From the NCBI RefSeq assembly GCF_026130545.1, contig NZ_JAMOIM010000011.1, positions 62,001 through 126,000 on the forward strand: a stretch of 64,000 nucleotides of DNA, in the 5' to 3' direction. This stretch comes from Lichenifustis flavocetrariae. Its GTDB lineage: Bacteria > Pseudomonadota > Alphaproteobacteria > Rhizobiales > Beijerinckiaceae. The position numbers and the translations under genes are program-made. Under the pieces are notes generated by a model that saw only the letters and a list, made by a program, of their open reading frames with translations, was not told the DNA's origin and did no database searches. Numbering within the stretch: position 1 is the stretch's first letter; each line of letters starts with the position of its first letter. Below, one piece after another: positions 8,512 to 63,552 of the stretch.

Positions 8512-8730
8512 CTCCTTTGCTGCGAAAGGGCGATTTCGGGAGCCTGCGGAATTATACGGGCGGCCGGCCGTTCGAGCCAGCTGGGGATAGGCTGTCGTTC
8601 TGCCATAATCCTCAAGCTTAAGCACTGCAACGATGATACACCGCAGACCGGCGCGACCTGAGTTTTGAGACGACGTCCAGTGATGCTTGCGCGATCGAGG
8701 TTGCCGGCGGAGGTTGCCAGCCTCCGCGGC

Positions 8731-10218
8731 ATGTTCCGTCTCCTGGTAGGGGCCGCGGGAACATTATTGGCGTCCTGCTCCTTCGACTCGACAAGGCCCG
8801 ATGTGAACATCGCGGTGCCGGCTGCCTTCGAGCACTCCGGTGCCAAGGCCAGCGCCCCGATCAGCACCGATTGGCCGGCCCAGTTCGGCTCTACCGAGCT
8901 GGCCCGCCTTGGCCGCTCGACCGCCGACAATAATCTGGACATCCAGGCCGCGGCAGCGCGCATCCTTCAGGCGGATGCGCAGGCGCAGATCACGGATGCG
9001 GCCCTGCTTCCGACCCTCGATGGCTCAACGAATGCGAGCCGGAGTTGGAGTCCCTCAACGATCCGGTCGAAGACCGGTCCTTTCACGACCTCGGCCAATA
9101 ACTCCTACCAGCTCGGCTTGAGCGCCTCCTACGAACTGGATCTGTGGGGCAAGAACCGGCTTGCGGGATTGGCGGCCGAGCACACCGCCGTGGCCACGCG
9201 TTTCGGGCGCGACGCCGTAGTGCTTTCTTCGGTCGCCGCGACCGTCAATGCCTATTTCACGGTTCTTGCCGCGCAGGACCGACTGAAGGTTGCCGATGAC
9301 AATCTGAAAAGCTCGCGTTTTATCCTCGAAGCCATCAAGGGACGTCTGTCGGTCGGCACGGTGACGGCGCTCGAAGTGGCGCAACAGGAAAGCGTGGTGG
9401 CGCAACAACTTGCGTCCTTCCCACCTTTGCAGCTTGAGTTGCAGCAGGCAAAGACGCAGATCGCAATTCTGGCGGGTCGGACGCCCGAAAGCCTCAAGAT
9501 CGCGGGAGGCACCCTGACAGCCCTGAAGGTCCCGCCCTTGCGGGCCGGAGTGCCCTCGCAGTTGCTACGCCGCCGGCCCGATGTGGCAGAGGCGGAATCG
9601 ACGCTGCTCTCAGCCGACGCCAGCGTAGCCTCTGCCCAGGCGGCTTTCTTTCCCTCGATCAGCCTCACTGCCAGCGGCGGTCTCGAAAGCCTCCTACTCA
9701 AGACGCTGCTGCGGCCGGAAGCCGCATTCGGATCCTTGGCGAGTGGGCTGACGCAGCCGTTGTTCGATGGGGGCGCCCTGCAGGGGAACCTTGCTCTGCA
9801 GGAAGGGCGTGCACGCGAGTACCTGGCGGATTACCGAAAAGCCATCATCCAAGCCTTTGTCGACGTGGAAAATGCCTTGATCGCGGTGCAACAGGATACC
9901 GAACATGTGAAGCGGTTGTCCGACGTGGTGGACGCATCCCGACGCGCCTACACGATCACCGAAGCGCGACTGAAAGAAGGGACCATCGATATCGTGACGG
10001 TGCTCCAGACCGAGCAGACACTTTTCAGCGCCGAGGATGCACTCGTCGTCGCTCGCCTCAGCCAGTTTCAGGCTTTAGCGAGCTTGGCGCAGGCGCTGGG
10101 GGGTGGTTGGGTGCAACCAGCAAGCGTCGTCATCCCACCCGTGGGCGGTGCTCTCCCGGGAGCCGAACGAATATTGTCGGGGCCGGTCTCAGCAGCCTTG
10201 TCGGGGCCTCGCACGTGA
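8731..10218 (+). CDS. efflux RND outer membrane lipoprotein, NodT/OprM family
   Basis: Outer-membrane channel of a tripartite efflux system. From 8731 (MFRLLVGAAGTLLASCS) it is a 495-residue lipoprotein with the lipobox LLASC, the Cys being residue 16. An upstream in-frame ATG at 8665 would place 22 basic residues before the signal and is less likely. Two repeated coiled-coil halves of the TolC type are recognisable, including SYELDLWGKNR, LLRRRPDVAEAESTLLSADA and LTQPLFDGGAL. Its stop overlaps the fusion-protein start (GTGA), so the two are translationally coupled. Confidence 0.94.
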   Translation: MFRLLVGAAGTLLASCSFDSTRPDVNIAVPAAFEHSGAKASAPISTDWPAQFGSTELARLGRSTADNNLDIQAAAARILQADAQAQITDAALLPTLDGSTNASRSWSPSTIRSKTGPFTTSANNSYQLGLSASYELDLWGKNRLAGLAAEHTAVATRFGRDAVVLSSVAATVNAYFTVLAAQDRLKVADDNLKSSRFILEAIKGRLSVGTVTALEVAQQESVVAQQLASFPPLQLELQQAKTQIAILAGRTPESLKIAGGTLTALKVPPLRAGVPSQLLRRRPDVAEAESTLLSADASVASAQAAFFPSISLTASGGLESLLLKTLLRPEAAFGSLASGLTQPLFDGGALQGNLALQEGRAREYLADYRKAIIQAFVDVENALIAVQQDTEHVKRLSDVVDASRRAYTITEARLKEGTIDIVTVLQTEQTLFSAEDALVVARLSQFQALASLAQALGGGWVQPASVVIPPVGGALPGAERILSGPVSAALSGPRT

Positions 10219-11618
10219 AAAAGGTCGTCTGGCTTGTGCTCGTTCTGGTGGCGGCCTTCGTTGCGGCGGAACGCATCCCTGCGCTGCGCGCCAAGCTTCC
10301 CTGGCTCCCGAATGTTCCAGGACTGACCAACGTGGCTGACACCGGCCAGAACCAGGCCGCCGGAGCACCTGACACCACAGGCGGACGCCGTCGTGGCGCG
10401 GGCGGCGGGGGGCGGCGAGGCGGCGGAGACGGACCAACCCCGGTTCTCGTGGCAGCCGCGCAAACCGCGGATGTGCCGGTGACCGCCGATGTTCTCGGCA
10501 CGGTTCAGGCCACCAACAACGTGACGGTGAGAAGCCAGGTTGACGGCAAGCTCATCGAGTTGGACTTCCAGGACGGTCAGGATGTGACCAAGGGCGACGT
10601 TCTGGCCCGTATCGACCCGGCGCCCTTCCAGGCGACTTACGACCAGGCTGTTGCCAAGAAGGCCCAGGACGAAGCGAACCTCGCCAATTCCCAGGCGGAT
10701 CTCATTCGCTACACCAAGCTCGCCGCCACGCAGTATGGGTCCGCGCAGCAGGCTGACACGCAGAAGGCGCAGGTGGCGCAAAATAAGGCCCTGATCCAGC
10801 AGGACCAGGCTGCCATCGATAGTGCGAAGACCACGCTTGACTACGCGACGATCCGCGCCCCGATCACGGGACGAACCGGCATTCGACTGATCGACGCCGG
10901 CAATGTGGTGCATGCCTCCGACGCCACCGGGATCGTGACCATCGCCGAAGTTCGGCCGATCGCCGCGATCTTCAACCTGCCGCAACAGCTCCTCGGGCAA
11001 ATCAATGCCGCCCAGGCCGGCGGGCCGCCGCTCAAGCTCGAAGCGTCAAGTCCCGACTCGCACGAGGTGATCGAGACGGGGACATTGCAGGTCATCGACA
11101 ATAGCGTCGATCAGACCACCGGAACCGTGAAGCTGAAAGGCAGCTTCCCCAATTCCGACCTGCAGCTCTGGCCGGGCCAATTCGTGAATCTTCGTCTCAC
11201 GATCTCGGTCGAGCGCAACGTCGTTGTCGTTCCTACACCCGCCATTCAGCGTGGTCCGGATGGGCCCTTCGTTTTTATCGTTCAGCCGGACGCCACGGTT
11301 CACCTGCAAAAAGTGAAGGTCGGGCGACAAACCGAAGATCGCAGCGTGATCGCGGAAGGTCTCAAACCGGGCGACAGTGTCGTCACGACAGGCTTCACCC
11401 GTCTGACGGACGGGGCCAAGGTAGCGGTGTCAAAACCCACAGCCGACGCTGAAACGAAAGGGCCTGCCGATGCGGGCCAGGCGGTCCAGCCAGCGGAGCC
11501 AAACACCGGGACCGACAGCGGCAATCGCAAAGCCCGCCATCTCCACCGAAGTAATTCGGCGCAGGCTGAAGGCTCAGCTGGAACCCAGGCGAAACCGGCG
11601 CCTGCCGCGCAGGATTGA
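10215..11618 (+). CDS. efflux RND transporter periplasmic adaptor subunit
   Basis: Membrane fusion protein (HlyD/MdtA type) linking an RND pump to the outer-membrane channel. I start it at the GTG at 10215, which overlaps the preceding stop (GTGA) and gives a membrane anchor VKKVVWLVLVLVAAFVAAE; the length is then 467 residues. A Gly/Arg-rich linker (about residues 58-75) precedes the lipoyl half-motif VDGKLIELDFQDGQDV and a coiled-coil hairpin with the second lipoyl half YATIRAPITGRTGIRLID. The Pro/Thr-rich tail after about residue 410 is low complexity. The cognate pump gene lies after an intervening ParA gene. Confidence 0.94.
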   Translation: MKKVVWLVLVLVAAFVAAERIPALRAKLPWLPNVPGLTNVADTGQNQAAGAPDTTGGRRRGAGGGGRRGGGDGPTPVLVAAAQTADVPVTADVLGTVQATNNVTVRSQVDGKLIELDFQDGQDVTKGDVLARIDPAPFQATYDQAVAKKAQDEANLANSQADLIRYTKLAATQYGSAQQADTQKAQVAQNKALIQQDQAAIDSAKTTLDYATIRAPITGRTGIRLIDAGNVVHASDATGIVTIAEVRPIAAIFNLPQQLLGQINAAQAGGPPLKLEASSPDSHEVIETGTLQVIDNSVDQTTGTVKLKGSFPNSDLQLWPGQFVNLRLTISVERNVVVVPTPAIQRGPDGPFVFIVQPDATVHLQKVKVGRQTEDRSVIAEGLKPGDSVVTTGFTRLTDGAKVAVSKPTADAETKGPADAGQAVQPAEPNTGTDSGNRKARHLHRSNSAQAEGSAGTQAKPAPAAQD

Positions 11619-11683
11619 GTTCGAGGACAAAAAATAAGTGCCCTCCTTTAATAACCATGACAATTTTGTGACATACTTGATTC

Positions 11684-12481
11684 ATGCTCAGGGGCTACTC
11701 CGCACGAATCATCGCTGTTGCCAATCGAAAGGGCGGCGTTGGGAAATCAACGACCGTCGTTAATCTTGCAGCGGAGCTTGCCAACCGAGGCTACCGGGTG
11801 CTGGCGGTCGATCTCGATCCGCAGGGCCATGCCGGCCTGGGACTTGGCATCCTGGCGCGCGCCGCCGACAAGACGGCTCACAGCGCCCTCGTCGAACGGC
11901 AGGTCTGGCTCGGAACAAGCATTCGGTCGACAGCGATCAAGAACCTGGATGTTCTCCCGGCGGATCGTGAGTTCGACGGCGTCATCCACGCGTCCGATCC
12001 GCGCTGTCTCGCCAAGGCTCTCGCGCCCTTGCGATCGCGCTATGACGTGATCCTGATCGATACGCCTCCCGGCAGCGCCAACCTGATCGTCTGCGCCCTC
12101 CTGGCGTCAGACGGCGTTCTGGTGCCTACGCTGCTCGAACATCTCTCCTTCGATGGGGTGCGGCAGTTCTCGCGCACCTATCATCACGTCGCGATGGGGT
12201 TGAATGCCGCACTGATGGGGCTCGCGATTGTCCCGACGCGGGTCGACCTGCGAAGCAAGGTCCAGCAGCATGTGCTCAGCCAGCTCAATCGAGGGTTCGG
12301 CCTCAGTCAGGTGATGCCTGGCATTAGGGTCGACATTTCTCTGTGCGAGGCCTTCGGGCATCACGAACCTGTTCGCTGCTACAAGTCCGGAAGCCGGGCG
12401 GTCGGCGACTTCGCCCGGGTGGCAGACGACGTGATTCACCGCTTCGCGTGTCACGAGATTGGCGTGGAAGCCGTCAATTAG
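11684..12481 (+). CDS. orphan ParA family ATPase
   Basis: A 265-residue deviant Walker ATPase of the ParA/Soj/MinD family. The deviant Walker A is KGGVGKSTT (residues about 16-24), followed by VDLDPQGHAGLGLG and the Walker B-type VILIDTPPG near residue 125. There is no N-terminal HTH, no ParB and no parS-like repeat nearby, so plasmid partition is unlikely. Such orphan ParAs position protein complexes in some bacteria. It sits between the adaptor and the pump gene of an efflux system, with an AT-rich 65-nt gap upstream that may hold its own promoter. Function unknown. Confidence 0.88.
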   Translation: MLRGYSARIIAVANRKGGVGKSTTVVNLAAELANRGYRVLAVDLDPQGHAGLGLGILARAADKTAHSALVERQVWLGTSIRSTAIKNLDVLPADREFDGVIHASDPRCLAKALAPLRSRYDVILIDTPPGSANLIVCALLASDGVLVPTLLEHLSFDGVRQFSRTYHHVAMGLNAALMGLAIVPTRVDLRSKVQQHVLSQLNRGFGLSQVMPGIRVDISLCEAFGHHEPVRCYKSGSRAVGDFARVADDVIHRFACHEIGVEAVN

Positions 12482-12567
12482 CCATTTAAGCGCCGTAGAA
12501 AGACATCTACGAGTCCTGAACTTGGTAGGGTGGTGCGCGTCAACATCAGCAGAGATCATGCGCCGGG

Positions 12568-15500
12568 ATGGCCCGCATGAACGTCTCCTCCCTGTTTATC
12601 CTGAGGCCGATAGCGACGTCGCTTCTCGCGGTGGCAGTTCTGCTTGCGGGCATTCTCGGGTACAGGCAGCTTTCCGTCGCCTCGTTGCCGCAAGTCGATT
12701 TTCCGACGATTCAGGTCACCACGCAGCTTCCGGGCGCGAATCCTGACACGATCTCCTCGCTTGTAACGGCCTCGCTCGAGCGTCAATTCGGCCAGATCCC
12801 GTCGCTCGCGACCATGTCGTCGCAAAGCTCCTTTGGCCTGAGCCAAATCACTCTGCAGTTCGAACTCGGGCGCGATATCGATGCAGCCGCGCAGGATGTG
12901 CAATCGGCCATCAATGCGGCGGCTTCAACGCTTCCGAAGAACCTGCCGTACCCGCCCACCTATTCAAAGGTAAACCCGGCCGACACGCCCATCCTCACGC
13001 TCGCGCTGACCTCGGATACCGTGGCGCTGCGCAGCCTGAGCGATGTTGCCGATACCCTGCTGGGGCCCCGATTGAGCCAGGTCACCGGCGTCGGCCATGT
13101 GGCGGTCGAGGGCAACATCCGGCCGGCGATCCGCATCCAGGCCGACCTCACACGGCTCGCGGCCTATGGCATCGCCATCGAGGATCTGCGCAACGCCATC
13201 GTGGCCGCCAATGTGGCGGGATCGAAAGGCTCGCTCGACGGCAAGCAGCAGGCCTACACGATCGAGGCCAACGATCAGATACAGGCTGCAGACATCTATA
13301 AGACGATCGTGGTCGCCTATCGCAACAATGCGCCGGTGCTGCTGCGGGATGTCGCCGACGTTCTCGACGGCCTCGAAAACGCGCGCGTCGCCGGCTGGTA
13401 CAAGGGCCACCCGGCCGTCATCATCGACGTGCAGCGTCAGCCGGGCGCCAATGTGGTCGAAACGGTCGATCGGCTGAAACGCGAGATTCCGAAGCTGAAG
13501 GGCTCGCTGTCGGCCGGCGTGGATCTCCAGATCGTCCACGATTCGACGGAAACCATCCGGGCCTCGATCGCCGATGTGCAGTTCACTCTGGTTCTGAGTG
13601 CTGCTCTCGTGGTGCTGGTGGTGTTGCTGTTTCTGCGCACCTTACGCGCCACGATCATCGCGGGCGTGGCCCTGCCCTTGTCGATCGTCGCGACCTTCGG
13701 GGTCATGTGGTTCGCGGGCTTCTCGCTGAACAATCTGTCGCTCATGGCCTTGACCATCTCGACGGGATTCGTCGTCGACGACGCGATCGTGATGATCGAG
13801 AACATCGTTCGCAAGATCGAGGAAGGCGAGACACCGCTCCAGGCGGCGCTGAGTGGCGCGCGCGAAATCGGCTTTACGGTGATCTCGTTGACCCTGTCGC
13901 TTGTCGCCGTCTTCATCCCGCTGCTGTTCATGACCGGAATCGTTGGCCGCATGTTCCGGGAATTCGCCCTCACGCTCACCTTTTCGGTGGTGGTCTCGGC
14001 CGTGGTGTCGCTGACGCTCACGCCGATGATGTGCGGGCGATTGCTCAAGGCCGTCCCGCACGATTTCCGCGAGCCCTGGTACATGCGGCTGGCCGAAGCC
14101 CCGATCACCGGCATGGCTCGGTTCTATGAGATGACGCTCCACTGGGCTCTGCGGCGACAAAGTCTGATGTTGCTTCTCACCCTCGTCACGATCGGGATGA
14201 CGGCCTACCTATATCTTGTTGTGCCGAAAGGGTTTCTGCCAGATCAGGATACGGGATTGATCAAAGCCGTCATCGAGGGGTCGCCGACGGCATCCTTCGC
14301 CGACATGGCTCGCCTTCAGGCAGAAGCCGAGGCCGCGATCCGCGACGATCCGGATGTGACCGGTGTTGTAACGGTGCTCGGTGTCGGTCTTCTCAATCCC
14401 ACTCCGAACGTCGCCAGCCTACAGATCGGGCTGCGCTCCGCGGAAATCCGAAAAAGTACAGCCGCCGCCGTTTCCGAACGGCTCCGCGAGCGGCTCTCCC
14501 GAGTGCCAGGGCTTACGGCCTACGTGAAGCCGGTGCAGGATATTCAGATCGCCACGCAGACGAGCCGGTCCCAGTATCAATACACGCTCACCTCGACCGA
14601 CAATAGCGCGCTCAGCGACTGGACTCCGAAACTCGTCGAGGCCATGCGCCGGGACGGCACCTTCCTGCATGTCGCCAACGAGGTGCAGGACGGCGGCCTG
14701 CGGGCTTTCGTGGACATCGACCGCGGCAAGGCAGGGCGCCTCGGCGTCTCGGCACAGCTTATCGACGACACGCTCTATGACGCCTTCGGCCAGCGCCAGA
14801 TTTCGACCATCTACGCCCAGGCGAACCAATACCGGGTCATTCTGGAAGCTGCGCCCCGCTATCTTACAGATCCGGCCGTGCTCGACCGGCTTTACGTCGG
14901 CATTTCAGGCGGCGCGCAGGTGCCGCTCGTATCCTTCGCGACGCTGAAACGCATCACGGCACCGCTCTCGATCGCGCATCTCGAACAGTTCCCCAGCGAT
15001 ACGATTTCGTTCGACCTGCCGGAAGGAACGTCGCTCGGCGAGGCCGTCCAGAGGATCTCGACGATCGAACAAGGCATCAGCATGCCCGATACGGTGATCG
15101 GCAGCTTCGGAGGCGACGCGGCCGAATTCACCAAGTCGCTCGCCGGCGAACCATGGCTGATCCTGGCCGCTGTCGTGACGATCTATCTGGTTCTCGGCGT
15201 GCTCTACGAGAGCTACATCCATCCATTGACGATCCTCTCCACCCTGCCCTCAGCCGGCGTCGGGGCCATCCTGGCCTTGATGCTGTGCAAGCAGGAACTC
15301 TCGATCGTTGCCTTGATCGGCATCATCCTGCTGATGGGCATCGTCAAGAAGAACGCCATCATGATGATCGATTTCGCGACCGCGGCCGAGCGCGAGGAGG
15401 GTTTAAGCCCGTTTGACGCGATCGAGCGGGCGTGCCGCCTGCGTTTTCGCCCGATCATGATGACGACGCTCGCGGCCCTTTTTGGCGCCGTCCCCCTCGC

Positions 15501-15720
15501 TTTCGCGCATGGCTCTGGCGCCGAATTGCGTGTGCCCCTGGGGATCACCATCATCGGTGGTCTGTTGGTCAGCCAGGTGCTGACCCTCTATACGACGCCG
15601 GTGATCTATCTGCTGATGGACCGCGTCGGTCGCCGCTTCGGCCTCGGCATTCAACGCGGCGAAGCGATCCCAATCGAGGAGGAACGCTATCCCGTGGTGT
15701 CTCAGAGGGCGGCGGAGTAA
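12568..15720 (+). CDS. efflux RND transporter permease, MdtB/MdtC-like
   Basis: Proton-driven inner-membrane pump of the hydrophobic/amphiphilic efflux RND family, 1050 residues, the family norm. The N-terminus MNVSSLFILRPIATSLL resembles MdtB and MuxB. The start may be the ATG at 12568 or the one three codons later (12577). The proton-relay acidic pair of TM4 is seen in STGFVVDDAIVMIENI. Two repeats, each a TM bundle plus a large periplasmic loop, are evident. With the adaptor and outer-membrane genes upstream it forms a complete drug or metabolite exporter; the substrate is not predictable. Confidence 0.95.
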   Translation: MARMNVSSLFILRPIATSLLAVAVLLAGILGYRQLSVASLPQVDFPTIQVTTQLPGANPDTISSLVTASLERQFGQIPSLATMSSQSSFGLSQITLQFELGRDIDAAAQDVQSAINAAASTLPKNLPYPPTYSKVNPADTPILTLALTSDTVALRSLSDVADTLLGPRLSQVTGVGHVAVEGNIRPAIRIQADLTRLAAYGIAIEDLRNAIVAANVAGSKGSLDGKQQAYTIEANDQIQAADIYKTIVVAYRNNAPVLLRDVADVLDGLENARVAGWYKGHPAVIIDVQRQPGANVVETVDRLKREIPKLKGSLSAGVDLQIVHDSTETIRASIADVQFTLVLSAALVVLVVLLFLRTLRATIIAGVALPLSIVATFGVMWFAGFSLNNLSLMALTISTGFVVDDAIVMIENIVRKIEEGETPLQAALSGAREIGFTVISLTLSLVAVFIPLLFMTGIVGRMFREFALTLTFSVVVSAVVSLTLTPMMCGRLLKAVPHDFREPWYMRLAEAPITGMARFYEMTLHWALRRQSLMLLLTLVTIGMTAYLYLVVPKGFLPDQDTGLIKAVIEGSPTASFADMARLQAEAEAAIRDDPDVTGVVTVLGVGLLNPTPNVASLQIGLRSAEIRKSTAAAVSERLRERLSRVPGLTAYVKPVQDIQIATQTSRSQYQYTLTSTDNSALSDWTPKLVEAMRRDGTFLHVANEVQDGGLRAFVDIDRGKAGRLGVSAQLIDDTLYDAFGQRQISTIYAQANQYRVILEAAPRYLTDPAVLDRLYVGISGGAQVPLVSFATLKRITAPLSIAHLEQFPSDTISFDLPEGTSLGEAVQRISTIEQGISMPDTVIGSFGGDAAEFTKSLAGEPWLILAAVVTIYLVLGVLYESYIHPLTILSTLPSAGVGAILALMLCKQELSIVALIGIILLMGIVKKNAIMMIDFATAAEREEGLSPFDAIERACRLRFRPIMMTTLAALFGAVPLAFAHGSGAELRVPLGITIIGGLLVSQVLTLYTTPVIYLLMDRVGRRFGLGIQRGEAIPIEEERYPVVSQRAAE

Positions 15721-58762: not shown

Positions 58763-59866
58763 TCACATATGCGCCATCGTCCCGGCCAGGTAGCGCTGAA
58801 CGAAGGGACGGTTGGCCGCCTTGGCCACCACATCGAGAGCGCCGATGTCGATGAGCCGGCGCCAGATCATCCCGCCTCGAAACGAGGTTCCGAATGCAGA
58901 CCGGCAGGCCGTCTGATACGCGGCGGCGGCGCGAGCCTCGTCTGTGTGACCCTGCAGCACCGATGCGATCGCCTCAGCGGCGGCAATCCCTGTCCGCATT
59001 GCCTGGTAGATGCCTTCTCCCGTCGCCGGATGCGTCATTCGGCCGGCCTCGCCGATGACGAAGCGGCCCGGTGATGTCAGATTCGCGATGCCGGTCGAGT
59101 AGGAGATCGGGTGGCCTTTCCAGGCACCAGAAGGCTGGGCGACGGAAATCCTATCAGCGTAATATTTGTCGAGAAACCTCTGAAACAGCTCCCGTCCGTT
59201 TTTTTCGAGCTTCGCGTCTTCGTAGCAGATCCCGATATTCACGCGGTTCTCGGTTTCAGGAAACATCCAGCCATAGAGAGGGGCCACGAGGGGATCGAAC
59301 ACCATTTCGATAAGGCCCGGCTCGTGCGCGAAGCCGTCCCACCAGCCCATGATCGTCTGCAAGGCGCGTCGCGGTCCTCGATCCAAGGCAAACCGCGACT
59401 TCGCTCCATCAGCGACGATCGTGAAAGCCGATTTCACCGCCGTCTCATCCTTCGCCTGGAACCCGACCACACGGTCGTCACGCATCAAGAGGTGATCGAC
59501 GTTGAGCCCAGGACGGAACACAGTTCCCAGCGCTTCAGCGCGGCGCAGAAGAATTTCATCGAAGATCCTGCGATTGCAGATCAAAGCGGCATCGGACTTC
59601 CCGATCATCCGGACGTCGTGTCCGGCCGGCGTGATAAGCCGCATGCCATTGATCCACAGGGCATGAGCCGACACCTCTTCGAGAAGTCCTAGCTGTTTAA
59701 GGATCTCGATCCCTTTCGGGGAGATCGCGCTGCCGCAGGTTTTATCGCGAGGAAAATCGTGACGATCCACGAGTGTCACATCTTTGACGCCGAGCATTGC
59801 CAACCGAATGGCAGCGACCAAGCCTGCCGGTCCGGCACCGATAATGCTGACATTGTGCTGTGACAT
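58763..59866 (-). CDS. geranylgeranyl reductase-like FAD oxidoreductase
   Basis: A 367-residue flavoprotein. The FAD motif is SIIGAGPAGLVAAIRL at the N-terminus, followed by the DKTCG motif (C44) of the geranylgeranyl reductase family. YGWMFPETENRVNIGIC (the Y-x-W-x-FP element) and GEAGRMTHPATGEGIYQAM complete the pattern. Relatives saturate prenyl double bonds in lipids, quinones or chlorophyll. Divergent from a cyclase and a squalene-monooxygenase-like gene, it could reduce an isoprenoid side chain in the same pathway; this is inferred from context. Confidence 0.87.
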   Translation of the reverse strand: MSQHNVSIIGAGPAGLVAAIRLAMLGVKDVTLVDRHDFPRDKTCGSAISPKGIEILKQLGLLEEVSAHALWINGMRLITPAGHDVRMIGKSDAALICNRRIFDEILLRRAEALGTVFRPGLNVDHLLMRDDRVVGFQAKDETAVKSAFTIVADGAKSRFALDRGPRRALQTIMGWWDGFAHEPGLIEMVFDPLVAPLYGWMFPETENRVNIGICYEDAKLEKNGRELFQRFLDKYYADRISVAQPSGAWKGHPISYSTGIANLTSPGRFVIGEAGRMTHPATGEGIYQAMRTGIAAAEAIASVLQGHTDEARAAAAYQTACRSAFGTSFRGGMIWRRLIDIGALDVVAKAANRPFVQRYLAGTMAHM

Positions 59867-60212
59867 AGTTTCTTACGCGACGCTGTATGTGGGAGGTCGT
59901 ATCTAGGTTCGAACGCGCCCAGATCCAGCGCGGACCCGGGGCGGCCGCAGCGAAGAAGCCGAAACACCGAAGCTTCGACCGTTCACCATGGACCCAGGCC
60001 GTGGGTTGCGCGTTCCGACCTTAGCATTCATTAAGATCGAGATCGACCCGGACACTTATGAAGGCAGCACAGGAACTTGCAATCGAACGCGCAGAGGGTG
60101 GGAAGTTGATCATCCGTTCGGCAGCGAGCCACGCGCGGGCGTGTCTGGATCTTGGACAGGAAAAATCGACGGCCCTGTACCGGATCGCAAAGGATGTTCC
60201 GTCCGCCGAGAC
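59867..60212. promoter_or_regulatory. divergent control region of the triterpenoid locus
   Basis: About 346 nt between the reductase start and the cyclase start. It contains the palindrome CGAAGCTTCG at 59968-59977 and a possible plus-strand promoter, TTGCGC (60006-60011), 17 nt, CATTAA (60029-60034). A 54-codon frame at 60058-60222 fills the stretch just before the cyclase. The promoter call is weak and rests on spacing only. Confidence 0.35.
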
Positions 60213-60222
60213 ATGTGCGTGA
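60058..60222 (+). CDS. possible 54-residue leader protein overlapping the cyclase start
   Basis: The frame begins MKAAQELAIERAEGGKLI and ends PSAETCA, its stop lying 10 nt past the first base of the chosen cyclase ATG at 60213. That overlap is typical of translational coupling. The product would be a charged helical peptide with no family I recognise. There is no strong ribosome site, and third-position G+C looks moderate. It might be a real small protein, a regulatory leader or chance. Confidence 0.3.
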   Translation: MKAAQELAIERAEGGKLIIRSAASHARACLDLGQEKSTALYRIAKDVPSAETCA

Positions 60223-62213
60223 ACGCTTCTATCGGTCATTTGCTTCCACATCCCGCCACATCCCTCGTGAAGGCCCAGCAGCGACTGGCCTCGTTGCAAC
60301 TTGACGACGGGTCCTGGGAAGCGGAGGTGGTCTGGAGCCCTGTGATCACAGCACAGGCCGTCATCGTCCAGGCCATTGTGGGGCAGATCGCATCCGAGCA
60401 GCGGCGCCGGCTCATCCTCCACTATTTCAGTCAGACACGCCGCCCGGATGGCGGCTGGGGGCTGCACCCGGAATCGCGGTCCTATGTGTTCGTGACGACG
60501 GTCGTCTACATCGCGGCAAGGCTGCTCGGTGCATCTCCTCAGGACAAGATGATAGTGTCGGCGCGCGAGTTCCTGGCCGCGAACCCGCATGGTGTTCATG
60601 CCAATCCGCAATGGGGACTGTTCTGGCTGGCCCTTATCGGCCTTTACGACCGGCATGGGCTGAACCCCTGCCCGCCAGAGCTTTTCTTGCTGCCGCGCAG
60701 CTCGCCGCTGTCGCCCCTTCGTTTCTACTGCCACACGCGATACATCTATCTTGCCATGGCGTATCTCTCCGGCAGTGGCTTTCAGGCCAATCTCGGCCCG
60801 CTGACCAACGAGCTCAGAAACGAATTGCCGGGCCTCGCGGGTGGGCCGCCATCCCATAAGGTTCCTGTCGCCCCGAGCGACCTTCACGAACCCCCAGGCA
60901 GGGTGCTGAGTGCGCTTTACGGCCTGACACGGGGCACCGCGGGCCTTTGGCGTGCACTGCCTGGAACCGCCGCTCTGCGAAAACGGGCTTTGAGTAGCGT
61001 GATCGATCGGATCCGCTACGAGCAGCGGGCGACCGGCTATCAAGGATTGTCGCCCGTCAGCGGTCTCCTCAATACGCTCGCGCTCTTTGCGCGGGACCCA
61101 AGCGACACCGATGTCGCCGCCAGCCTTGATGGAGTCGAGGCATGGTGTTGGAGCGACGAGGAAAACGGTTTGCGCTACGCCGGCGCTCGTTCAACCGCAT
61201 GGGATACGAGCTTTGCCCTTCAAGCCCTCGTTGAGGAGGGCCCTGATGCCGCGACGCGGCACATGCAGGTCATCCGGCGGGGCTATGCGCGGCTATGTGC
61301 CATGCAGGCGGTGAGCGATCCGCCCGACCGGATCGCGCAGGATCGCGATATCAATCTGGGCGGCTGGTGTTTCACCGAAGGTACTCAGGCGTGGCCGGTC
61401 AGCGATTGCACGGCCGAAGCCGTGATCGCGCTGCTGGACTGCCACGCGATCGAGGGGTTGATCGAGCCTCAGAATCGCATCTCCGGCATCAGGCTGCCAC
61501 AGGCGGCCGATTTTATCCTCAGCCGCCAGAACCAGGACGGCGGTTTCGGCAGCTATGAGCGGAGACGCGGTCAAGCGTTTCTGGAACGCCTCAACCCATC
61601 GGAGATGTTCGGCCGATGCATGACCGAACTCACCTATGTAGAATGCACGTCTTCCTCCATCCGAGCGCTCTCCCGCATTCTCGGCTCCGGCGCGCCCGTC
61701 GACCGCGAACGATTGACCGAGGCAATCCGGCAAGGAACGGAGATTGTTCTTTCCCGGCAACAACAGGATGGCAGCTGGCCAGGATTCTGGGGCATCAATT
61801 TTGTCTATGGAACTTTGTTCGCTCTGACGGCTTTGCGGGATATCGGCCTTCCCGTCGATCACCCGGCAATCCTGCGTGCACGAGCTTGGCTCGAGGCTCG
61901 GCAAAAGCCGGATGGCGGTTGGGGAGAGCATTTCGACGGCTGTGCCAGCGGCACATATGTCGATAACCCAAGAAGTCTCGTGATAACAACCGCCTGGGCC
62001 ACCCTGGCTCTCCTTTGCACTGCCAATCTTTCACTGGAGAGCGCTCGACGCGGAGGTGCTTGGCTCGAGTCGAGCCAGCTCGCGAATGGCGACTGGCCAC
62101 GCGACAGCGTGAATGGCGTTTTCTTTGGAACCGCGATGCTCGACTATCGTCTTTACAACACCTATTTCCCCGTCATGGCGCTTGCGAAGTTGGCCCGACA
62201 TGCTAGCGCCTGA
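60213..62213 (+). CDS. oxidosqualene cyclase-type terpene cyclase
   Basis: A 666-residue triterpene cyclase from the ATG at 60213; an open frame runs back to 59988 but those 75 residues look unrelated. The catalytic acid motif is VSDCTAE (D398, C399), as in lanosterol and cycloartenol synthases, not the DXDD of squalene-hopene cyclases. LNPSEMFGRCMTELTYVECTS (C478), FGSYE (Y448) and FYCHTRYIYLAMAY (H174) match the positions of human C533, Y503 and H232. QW repeats such as QDGGFGSY, QDGSWPGFWG and QKPDGGWGEHF recur. It overlaps the squalene-monooxygenase-like gene by 14 nt, implying oxidosqualene as substrate. Confidence 0.93.
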   Translation: MCVNASIGHLLPHPATSLVKAQQRLASLQLDDGSWEAEVVWSPVITAQAVIVQAIVGQIASEQRRRLILHYFSQTRRPDGGWGLHPESRSYVFVTTVVYIAARLLGASPQDKMIVSAREFLAANPHGVHANPQWGLFWLALIGLYDRHGLNPCPPELFLLPRSSPLSPLRFYCHTRYIYLAMAYLSGSGFQANLGPLTNELRNELPGLAGGPPSHKVPVAPSDLHEPPGRVLSALYGLTRGTAGLWRALPGTAALRKRALSSVIDRIRYEQRATGYQGLSPVSGLLNTLALFARDPSDTDVAASLDGVEAWCWSDEENGLRYAGARSTAWDTSFALQALVEEGPDAATRHMQVIRRGYARLCAMQAVSDPPDRIAQDRDINLGGWCFTEGTQAWPVSDCTAEAVIALLDCHAIEGLIEPQNRISGIRLPQAADFILSRQNQDGGFGSYERRRGQAFLERLNPSEMFGRCMTELTYVECTSSSIRALSRILGSGAPVDRERLTEAIRQGTEIVLSRQQQDGSWPGFWGINFVYGTLFALTALRDIGLPVDHPAILRARAWLEARQKPDGGWGEHFDGCASGTYVDNPRSLVITTAWATLALLCTANLSLESARRGGAWLESSQLANGDWPRDSVNGVFFGTAMLDYRLYNTYFPVMALAKLARHASA

Positions 62214-63552
62214 TCGCTTTTTCGACGTGCTGATCGCCGGCGGCAGCGTGGCCGGTCTCGCCACCGCGGCTGCCCTGCGCGAATTTGGGTTCTCGGTCCT
62301 TGTCGTCGAGCCGGGTCAGCGCACCGAGCGGCGGCTGGCGGGCGAGCTTCTTCACCCACTCGGCGTCGCGGCTCTTCACGAGCTCGGTCTCTTCGACCCG
62401 GAAGCCTTCGTGAAGGCGATGCCAATCCAGGGGTTCGCAGTTTTTCCGGATGAAGGACAGGCCGCTTCGCGGATTATGCTGACCTATGGCAAACACAAGG
62501 TGGCGGCTTCGCGCGCTATGGCGATCGACTTTTCCGTCTTCCGCCGCAATCTCGAAAACGCCGCGCGCCGTTTCGATCACGTGACCTTCCTCGACGATGC
62601 CCGTGTGGCTGCGGTGGACATGAGTGACCCGATGTCGCCTCGGATCACGGTGGAGTCGGAGGGTCGTCTTCAAATCATCGGATGCCGTATTCTTGTCGCG
62701 GCCGATGGGGCTTCAAGTTCCGTCCGCAGCCTGGTCGGGATTGAACACACGCGCCGAAACATCTCGACGATCTCCGGCTATGTGATCGAGGGCGCGACCC
62801 TGCCGGCGCCGGGTTTCGGCCACGTCATCATCGGAGGGTCCTCTCTCGTATTGGCCTACGAGATCGGAGGAGGTCGTGCCCGCGTGATGTTCGACCACCC
62901 GATCGAGCTCGAAGGGATCGCTTCCGCATCGCATCGCGAGAGCTTGCTGGGCTCGATTCCGGAACCCTTACGTCAGCAAGTGGCCGCAGCGATGGCCACT
63001 CAAAAGCCGTTGATCTTCAAGAGTGCCGAGGTTGTCGCTCATGCCTCATCGCTTGGTGCGGCCGTTCTGGTTGGCGATGCCGGGGGAAGCTGCCATCCTC
63101 TCACCGCGACGGGCATGACGATCGGGATCTGCGATGGATTGCGTCTCCGTGATGCTCTGCGCCGGCACCCCAACAGCCTGCGGAATGCGTTCCGGCACTA
63201 TGACCGCGTGCGGCGCAAGGCCCAGCGGAGCCGGCGCATGGTCGCATCCGCGCTTCACGACGTGTGCAGCAAAAGAGACCCCGAACTCTGCGTGATCCGC
63301 GCCGGTTTGATCCGCTACTGGCGCCGGGATGCCCGCAGTTCATCGGCCACGATGGCAATTCTGGCCATGACGGACGATCGCCTCGTTTCGGCGTTCTGGC
63401 AGTTCGTGAAGGTGATCCGCCATGGTCTTGCGGAACATTGGCAGACAGACCGTACACCGCGTCTCGCACGTGTCGGTCTCAGTGCCCGCCTCGTTGCGGC
63501 CCTCGGCGCCATGACGGTCCGACGGATGAGTGCTTCATTGAAAGCGCGCTAG
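62200..63552 (+). CDS. squalene monooxygenase-like FAD oxidoreductase
   Basis: A 450-residue flavoprotein monooxygenase. The start at 62200 lies 14 nt inside the cyclase gene, and the frame upstream from 62113 belongs to shadow coding. The FAD motif is LIAGGSVAGLATA (about 11-23). It then has GELLHPLGVAALHELGL (48-64), a mark of squalene epoxidases, ADGASSSVRSLVG, and GDAGGSCHPLTATGMTIGICD (292-312), like the GDA...HPLTGGGM block of that family. The C-terminal part is basic and amphipathic and may bind membrane. It should make 2,3-oxidosqualene for the cyclase. Confidence 0.88.
   Translation: MLAPDRFFDVLIAGGSVAGLATAAALREFGFSVLVVEPGQRTERRLAGELLHPLGVAALHELGLFDPEAFVKAMPIQGFAVFPDEGQAASRIMLTYGKHKVAASRAMAIDFSVFRRNLENAARRFDHVTFLDDARVAAVDMSDPMSPRITVESEGRLQIIGCRILVAADGASSSVRSLVGIEHTRRNISTISGYVIEGATLPAPGFGHVIIGGSSLVLAYEIGGGRARVMFDHPIELEGIASASHRESLLGSIPEPLRQQVAAAMATQKPLIFKSAEVVAHASSLGAAVLVGDAGGSCHPLTATGMTIGICDGLRLRDALRRHPNSLRNAFRHYDRVRRKAQRSRRMVASALHDVCSKRDPELCVIRAGLIRYWRRDARSSSATMAILAMTDDRLVSAFWQFVKVIRHGLAEHWQTDRTPRLARVGLSARLVAALGAMTVRRMSASLKAR

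Follow-up and report, generated by a model that had tools for sequence, protein, structure and literature searches.

Genes of the locus and the families of their products

The 64,000-nucleotide stretch of contig NZ_JAMOIM010000011.1 analysed here (positions 62,001 to 126,000; hereafter the window) comes from the alphaproteobacterium Lichenifustis flavocetrariae (Rhizobiales; Beijerinckiaceae), and the listing of its open reading frames (ORFs) confirms three intact, full-length frames within window positions 58763-63552. On the plus strand lie a cyclase gene (60213..62213), whose product is assigned to the Group 1 bacterial oxidosqualene cyclases (OSCs) by TIGR01787, PDB relatives, fold and trees, and a squalene epoxidase (monooxygenase) gene (62200..63552), assigned by Pfam SE, its best PDB relative (human SQLE) and trees. 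On the minus strand, at 58763..59866, lies the gene of a flavoprotein of the geranylgeranyl reductase (GGR) family, a candidate Bsr-like sterol C-24 reductase according to TIGR02032, tree and co-occurrence. The family matches of the three proteins are long and highly significant, beyond chance. Taken together, the locus probably adds to the hopanoid pathway of the host a minimal route to sterols, in which lanosterol is reduced to 24,25-dihydrolanosterol without ring demethylation. The genome measures 7.5 Mb in 180 contigs (99.72% complete, 3.04% contaminated), and the contig of the locus 208 kb.

In the proposed pathway, squalene would be provided by HpnC, HpnD and HpnE of the host and converted, with O2, to 2,3-oxidosqualene by the enzyme encoded at 62200-63552; the cyclase (60213-62213) would then lead 2,3-oxidosqualene through the protosteryl cation to lanosterol, and the GGR-family enzyme would reduce the C-24 double bond. 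The probable end product, 24,25-dihydrolanosterol, is a 4,4,14-trimethyl sterol with a saturated side chain. We infer these enzyme activities, the C-24 reduction and the arrest of the pathway at that point from sequence.

The cyclase ORF, taken at its longest, runs from 59988. Since homology begins only near residue 90 of this frame, the start was placed at the ATG at 60213, most likely the true one. Similarly, the longest epoxidase ORF starts at 62113, and the start at 62200 produces the 14-nt overlap with the cyclase stop at 62213 that a preliminary description of this DNA had reported.

By family, motif and phylogeny, the cyclase is an oxidosqualene cyclase and not a squalene-hopene cyclase (SHC). 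It reaches 435 bits against TIGR01787 (squalene/oxidosqualene cyclase), passing the cut-off of 322.7; its best sequence match among PDB structures is human lanosterol synthase (LSS), and its structure model (predicted local distance difference test, pLDDT, 92.3) has human OSC as nearest fold, with a template modelling (TM) score of 0.92. The VSDCTAE catalytic motif lies at 61398..61418 on the plus strand, with its V aligned to human V453 and its D and C to D455 and C456. The equivalents of human D455, C456, C533, H232 and Y503 are all kept, both in the alignment to human LSS and in a 94-row alignment, exactly as first described. The reported absence of the DxDD motif also holds; the motif is present in the second cyclase of the genome, an ordinary hopene cyclase encoded on another contig. 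The SQHop Pfam domains of the window cyclase and the hopanoid pathway of the genome could suggest an SHC paralogue, but this candidate, exceedingly improbable in our judgement, is refuted by the missing DxDD and by the grouping with OSCs at 100/100, and the score against the hopene cyclase model TIGR01507 (223.8 bits) lies below its cut-off of 431.1.

For the cyclase phylogeny, 133 OSC relatives came from a scan of 84,980 species genomes, and the 80 best among them were retained. The first tree was built after dropping seven fragmentary or broken rows, with nine hopene cyclases as outgroup; the second contains 55 chosen rows, including one 278-residue fragment. In the second tree the OSCs, window cyclase included, split from the SHCs at 100/100, which answers the phylogenetic check proposed in the preliminary description. 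Specifically, the window cyclase falls inside a Group 1 clade together with Methylococcus, Gemmata, Rokubacteria, actinomycetes and a metagenome-assembled genome (MAG) of Terriglobia (support 99 in the first tree; 100/100, 20 rows, in the second), and the OSC of the Terriglobia MAG is its sister (87 and 97/90, respectively). It shares catalytic residues, clade and an adjoining epoxidase with the Group 1 OSCs of Methylococcus capsulatus, Gemmata and Rokubacteria, to which it is about 45-52% identical, and differs from them in its long branch, in Q449 in place of H, in its alphaproteobacterial host and in that no CYP51 was found in the genome.

Some relatives recovered on the way have particular features. 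In the Terriglobia MAG, a cytochrome P450 gene lies immediately upstream of the OSC (L048:8610-9959). The linear megaplasmid pSSP121038 of Streptomyces sp. YIM 121038 (L046) carries genes for an OSC-like cyclase, with Y in the position of the catalytic H232, a squalene synthase and an FAD oxidoreductase, with transposase genes near; plasmid p2 of Planktothrix agardhii (L047) carries an OSC together with several P450s, a squalene synthase and an epoxidase-like flavoprotein, in what looks like a triterpenoid cluster.

The assignment of the flavoprotein encoded at 62200-63552 as a squalene epoxidase is supported by several comparisons. It scores 77 bits against Pfam SE (cut-off 20) and contains FAD motifs; the scored part of the OSC-adjoining protein of Methylococcus capsulatus reaches 69 bits. 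Its best PDB relative is human squalene monooxygenase, at 2.4e-20 against 2.6e-9 for the next. The two epoxidase marks noted in the preliminary description, GELLHP (62341..62358) and GDA...HPLT..GM (63073..63117), both on the plus strand, align with the human enzyme. Two trees were built, the first from a chosen set with locus L121 dropped, the second from fewer sequences, the long ones trimmed to 560 residues. In both, the protein groups with the epoxidases that adjoin the OSCs of Methylococcus and Rokubacteria and with that of Terriglobia (98 and 98/97, respectively), apart from the GGR outgroup, so that the flavoprotein passes the grouping check suggested for it; the same lineages surround the window cyclase. 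Its branch is long, and a Bradyrhizobiaceae MAG supplies the sister sequence (92 and 97/88); human SQLE and PqsL fall without resolution at the base of the second tree. In the Bradyrhizobiaceae MAG (L116), the gene of this sister adjoins an OSC that is basal to the Group 2 rows and without Cys533.

The GGR-family reductase and its association with oxidosqualene cyclases

The third protein keeps, in alignment, the two catalytic elements of GGR proteins described in PMC12004948: the YxWxFP motif, here YGWMFP (59258..59275, minus strand), and the active-site cysteine, here Cys44 of DKTCGS (59735..59737, minus strand). Its structure model has a pLDDT of 86.5, and the nearest structure is a GGR-like protein of Thermoplasma.

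Among 20 genomes searched whole, that of the window included, nine others have a close GGR homologue (E <= 1e-40), and in 9/9 of these, from several phyla, the best GGR match of the genome sits within about 6 kb of an OSC; these nine were picked because the GGR-OSC link was already visible, and the ten remaining OSC genomes are without a homologue that close. The unbiased part of the association is the Myxococcota sample. In particular, 17 of 193 Myxococcota genomes have a close GGR homologue (E <= 1e-65), and 16 of the 17 carry an OSC (E <= 1e-60), genome G454 being the exception; in the remaining 176 genomes the figure is 40 (Fisher 6e-9, without correction for relatedness). Among Myxococcota with a weaker homologue (1e-20 to 1e-40), an OSC is found in only 1/17.

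The GGR tree comprises 55 of 59 loci (L143-L201), three having been dropped as poor matches and one for want of a BLAST match, and covers homologues for which a locus was returned. Together with Rokubacteria and Myxococcota, the window protein forms a 7-row clade (100/100), nested in a 26-row clade (100/99). An OSC is present in 24 of the 25 other genomes of the larger clade, nine of which were fetched through their OSC. In a Myxococcota member of the 7-row clade (L202), the GGR gene adjoins an epoxidase and an OSC, and a neighbouring frame contains HMG-CoA reductase, prenyl synthase, squalene synthase and 3-beta-HSD-like domains.

Lee and Welander (PMC12004948) showed reduction at sterol C-24 by Bsr, a Sandaracinus protein of the GGR family whose homologues occur in Myxococcota and cyanobacteria. 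The window protein resembles Bsr, as there described, in family, in catalytic cysteine, in the YxWxFP motif and in the link to OSC in Myxococcota and cyanobacteria; in contrast to Bsr, its likely substrate would be lanosterol rather than zymosterol or desmosterol, as no CYP51 was found in the genome. The window protein is a candidate Bsr-like sterol C-24 reductase. The early suggestion that the third enzyme could saturate a side chain thus gains strong support from an OSC-associated GGR clade that fits the description of Bsr. To the holders so described the clade adds Rokubacteria, Nonomuraea and this alphaproteobacterium, which suggests a C-24 sterol reductase family spread over more phyla than the two named there as its main holders.

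Predicted product and competing explanations

With regard to precursor supply, the genome, which also has a separate hopene cyclase, carries hpnC, hpnD and hpnE next to one another on another contig, all three above the curated cut-offs; therefore, squalene should be available. The whole genome contains three P450s (PF00067 search), all on other contigs, in line with the earlier remark that no P450 lies in the window. Sterol 14-demethylase structures exist in the PDB, and none is named among the 60 best PDB matches listed for each of the three; steroid C26-monooxygenases appear among the lower PDB matches of one of them. Since the genome yielded no CYP51-like P450, the probable product is a 4,4,14-trimethyl sterol rather than the 4,4-dimethyl sterol first proposed. 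In addition, a Pfam scan (E <= 1e-10) of 20 further window ORFs, of 52 picked, revealed no sterol-modifying enzyme, with two of the ORFs matching nothing. A precedent exists within the Rhizobiales: according to PMC4919349, Methyloceanibacter caenitepidi has an epoxidase and an OSC without later-step homologues and makes only cycloartenol. A minimal set can therefore work in that order.

The lanosterol specificity of the cyclase is suggested by F444 and V453 (human numbering), both of the lanosterol-synthase type. At residue 444, F leads to lanosterol and L to parkeol (PMC9236903), and V453 went with lanosterol in the bacteria assayed in PMC4919349. That the locus provides a three-enzyme pathway beside hopanoid synthesis, ending at 24,25-dihydrolanosterol or the parkeol analogue and with C-24 reduction as the sole post-cyclisation step, is in our estimate about evenly balanced between true and false.

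A number of observations count against the pathway as proposed. With regard to the cyclase, the score against TIGR03463 (2,3-oxidosqualene cyclase) is 750.5 bits, below the cut-off of 851; because four of ten other OSCs scored also miss it, one of them a Group 2 OSC of an order-mate, this cut-off was not treated as defining. Moreover, the branch of the window cyclase (1.05 and 1.01 in the two trees) is among the longest of its group, and seven of the columns with 95% or more conservation across 56 Group 1 rows show a residue private to this protein. The clearest of these changes, four codons upstream of the V of VSDCTAE, is Q at the position equal to human 449, where 62 of 64 other Group 1 rows have H and none has Q, the division into Group 1 and Group 2 being made for this comparison on residue 230 alone. 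With respect to the reductase, the score against TIGR02032 is 153.9 bits, just below the cut-off of 158.8; the gene is divergent from the cyclase/epoxidase pair, being transcribed away from the other two; and its link to Bsr is through the description of a clade, the OSC-associated clade with its Myxococcota and cyanobacterial members agreeing with the holders described for Bsr. Concerning later steps, the lack of sterol-modifying enzymes in the Pfam scan applies to window ORFs, no whole-genome search aimed at the C-4 demethylases SdmA/SdmB having been made, and a PF01222 (C-14 reductase) search gave no match in the genome and none in the controls either.

The long branch and the private changes, Q449 in particular, which lies at a position with known influence on the product, could mean that the same pathway runs with a cyclase product other than lanosterol, a 3-hydroxy triterpenoid that might be parkeol, a mixture or a new skeleton and would then be saturated by the GGR-family enzyme. 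The Gemmata parkeol synthase belongs to Group 1; on the other hand, C, Q and H are the usual residues at 449 of lanosterol synthases, combined with V453. Parkeol is accordingly ranked second to lanosterol, since F444 and V453 favour the latter though residue 449 suggested parkeol; we consider such a product possible but doubtful.

The orientation of the reductase gene, together with the diverse substrates of the GGR family (PMC12004948) and a match to MenJ of 94.6 bits, far below that cut-off of 700, would be compatible with an enzyme serving another isoprenoid, such as a quinone or a carotenoid, and present here by chance. The co-occurrence with OSC in 16/17 Myxococcota genomes and the proximity in nine genomes of several phyla argue against such a coincidence, which we hold to be unlikely.

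A further possibility is that the sterol is made and the later steps are scattered in the genome, giving a partly demethylated final product. In the Myxococcota genomes G560, G564 and G531, a close GGR homologue and an OSC do lie on different contigs or 1.6 Mb apart; a Rieske oxygenase adjoins the OSC of the Rokubacteria locus treated below, and the Pfam scan just mentioned covered window ORFs. Only three P450s, none CYP51-like among the matches inspected, in a 99.7% complete genome make this explanation quite unlikely.

Distribution, origin and significance of the locus

Taking E <= 1e-60 as an OSC-level match, this genome is the only one in its genus (1/6, 0/5 genus-mates) and the only one among 397 sampled genomes of its family to have one. 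Six of 397 order genomes, this one included, give such a match, the other five belonging to one genus of another family, and 7/385 in the class, again with this one. The rarity stated in the preliminary description is thus borne out for the family sample (1/397), and less so for the class, where six other genomes of 385 have an OSC-level match. A trait of the host lineage is ruled out by the absence of such a match from all five genus-mates and from 396 other family genomes.

The OSCs of the order-mates, four of five of which were placed, belong to Group 2, are of the cycloartenol type (Y381/H449/I453) and are 36-39% identical to the window cyclase. They resemble the OSC of M. caenitepidi, whose naming here is inferred, and whose cycloartenol pathway has in common with the window locus a Rhizobiales host, an epoxidase and an OSC; unlike the window locus, the order-mates show no close GGR in the ~4.9-kb loci read. 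The OSCs of the class-mates, four of six placed, lie apart from the window cyclase within Group 1, in a clade that also contains MAGs of Acidimicrobiia, Bacteroidetes and Gammaproteobacteria; in stretches of 7 to 20 kb around the OSCs of the six class-mates, no GGR match exceeds 50 bits, and an epoxidase was seen in 5/6 of these stretches. An origin shared with either set is ruled out by these placements (4/5 and 4/6 in other clades). Since the other alphaproteobacterial OSCs placed fall in other clades, a separate acquisition is the best reading of the locus. In their trees the nearest relatives differ from one of the three genes to the next, and the GC content of the locus is about that of the window; the data therefore demonstrate neither recent transfer nor one common donor.

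The restriction to one of 397 family genomes and the long branches of cyclase and epoxidase might also be expected of a decaying, non-functional acquisition. Three full-length frames, kept catalytic residues where checked, coding-like third-position GC and confident structure models of the cyclase and the GGR protein tell against decay, which is very unlikely.

A Rokubacteria locus (L126, QHRU01000036.1) likewise holds OSC, GGR and epoxidase together, with 51%, 52% and 41% identity, respectively, to the window proteins, and differs from the window locus in gene order and in the addition of a Rieske oxygenase and an MMPL/Patched protein. Specifically, the VanA-type Rieske oxygenase lies beside the OSC, and the MMPL/Patched protein, which matches a sterol-sensing domain and also has a cNMP-binding domain, on the other side (L126:7939-9996 and L126:16220-19441); the two could be a C-4 demethylase and a sterol transporter.

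Each of the enzyme families is already known; what is new is their combination and the minimal set in this host lineage. Among the matches listed in the open full-text literature, with most subscription papers outside this scope, there is no report of this gene combination, nor, in the same literature, any relevant report of dihydrolanosterol with parkeol in bacteria. Lanosterol-like sterol synthesis with side-chain saturation is thought to be confined to a minority of bacteria. Both sterols and their fossil products serve as markers of eukaryotes and of oxygen; new bacterial producers or end products therefore bear on how these markers are read. From the locus, a specific and unusual bacterial lipid can be predicted, as well as a minimal gene set testable in a laboratory host, and hopanoids and a sterol could here share one membrane in a natural system. 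If confirmed, the proposed pathway would widen the range of Bsr from Myxococcota and cyanobacteria to include Alphaproteobacteria, Rokubacteria and actinomycetes, and would represent a bacterial source of lanostanes with a saturated side chain.

In the surroundings of the locus, the window contains an RND efflux triad (outer membrane factor, HlyD-type and AcrB-type proteins; 8665-15717), about 43 kb from the sterol genes and without evidence of a link to them. An enoyl-CoA hydratase gene flanking the locus has a match at E <= 1e-60 in one of the five genus-mates. An ORF resembling a serine recombinase (named by eye; L135:18011-19633) lies on the same contig, outside the window, about 20 kb to the right of the epoxidase gene.

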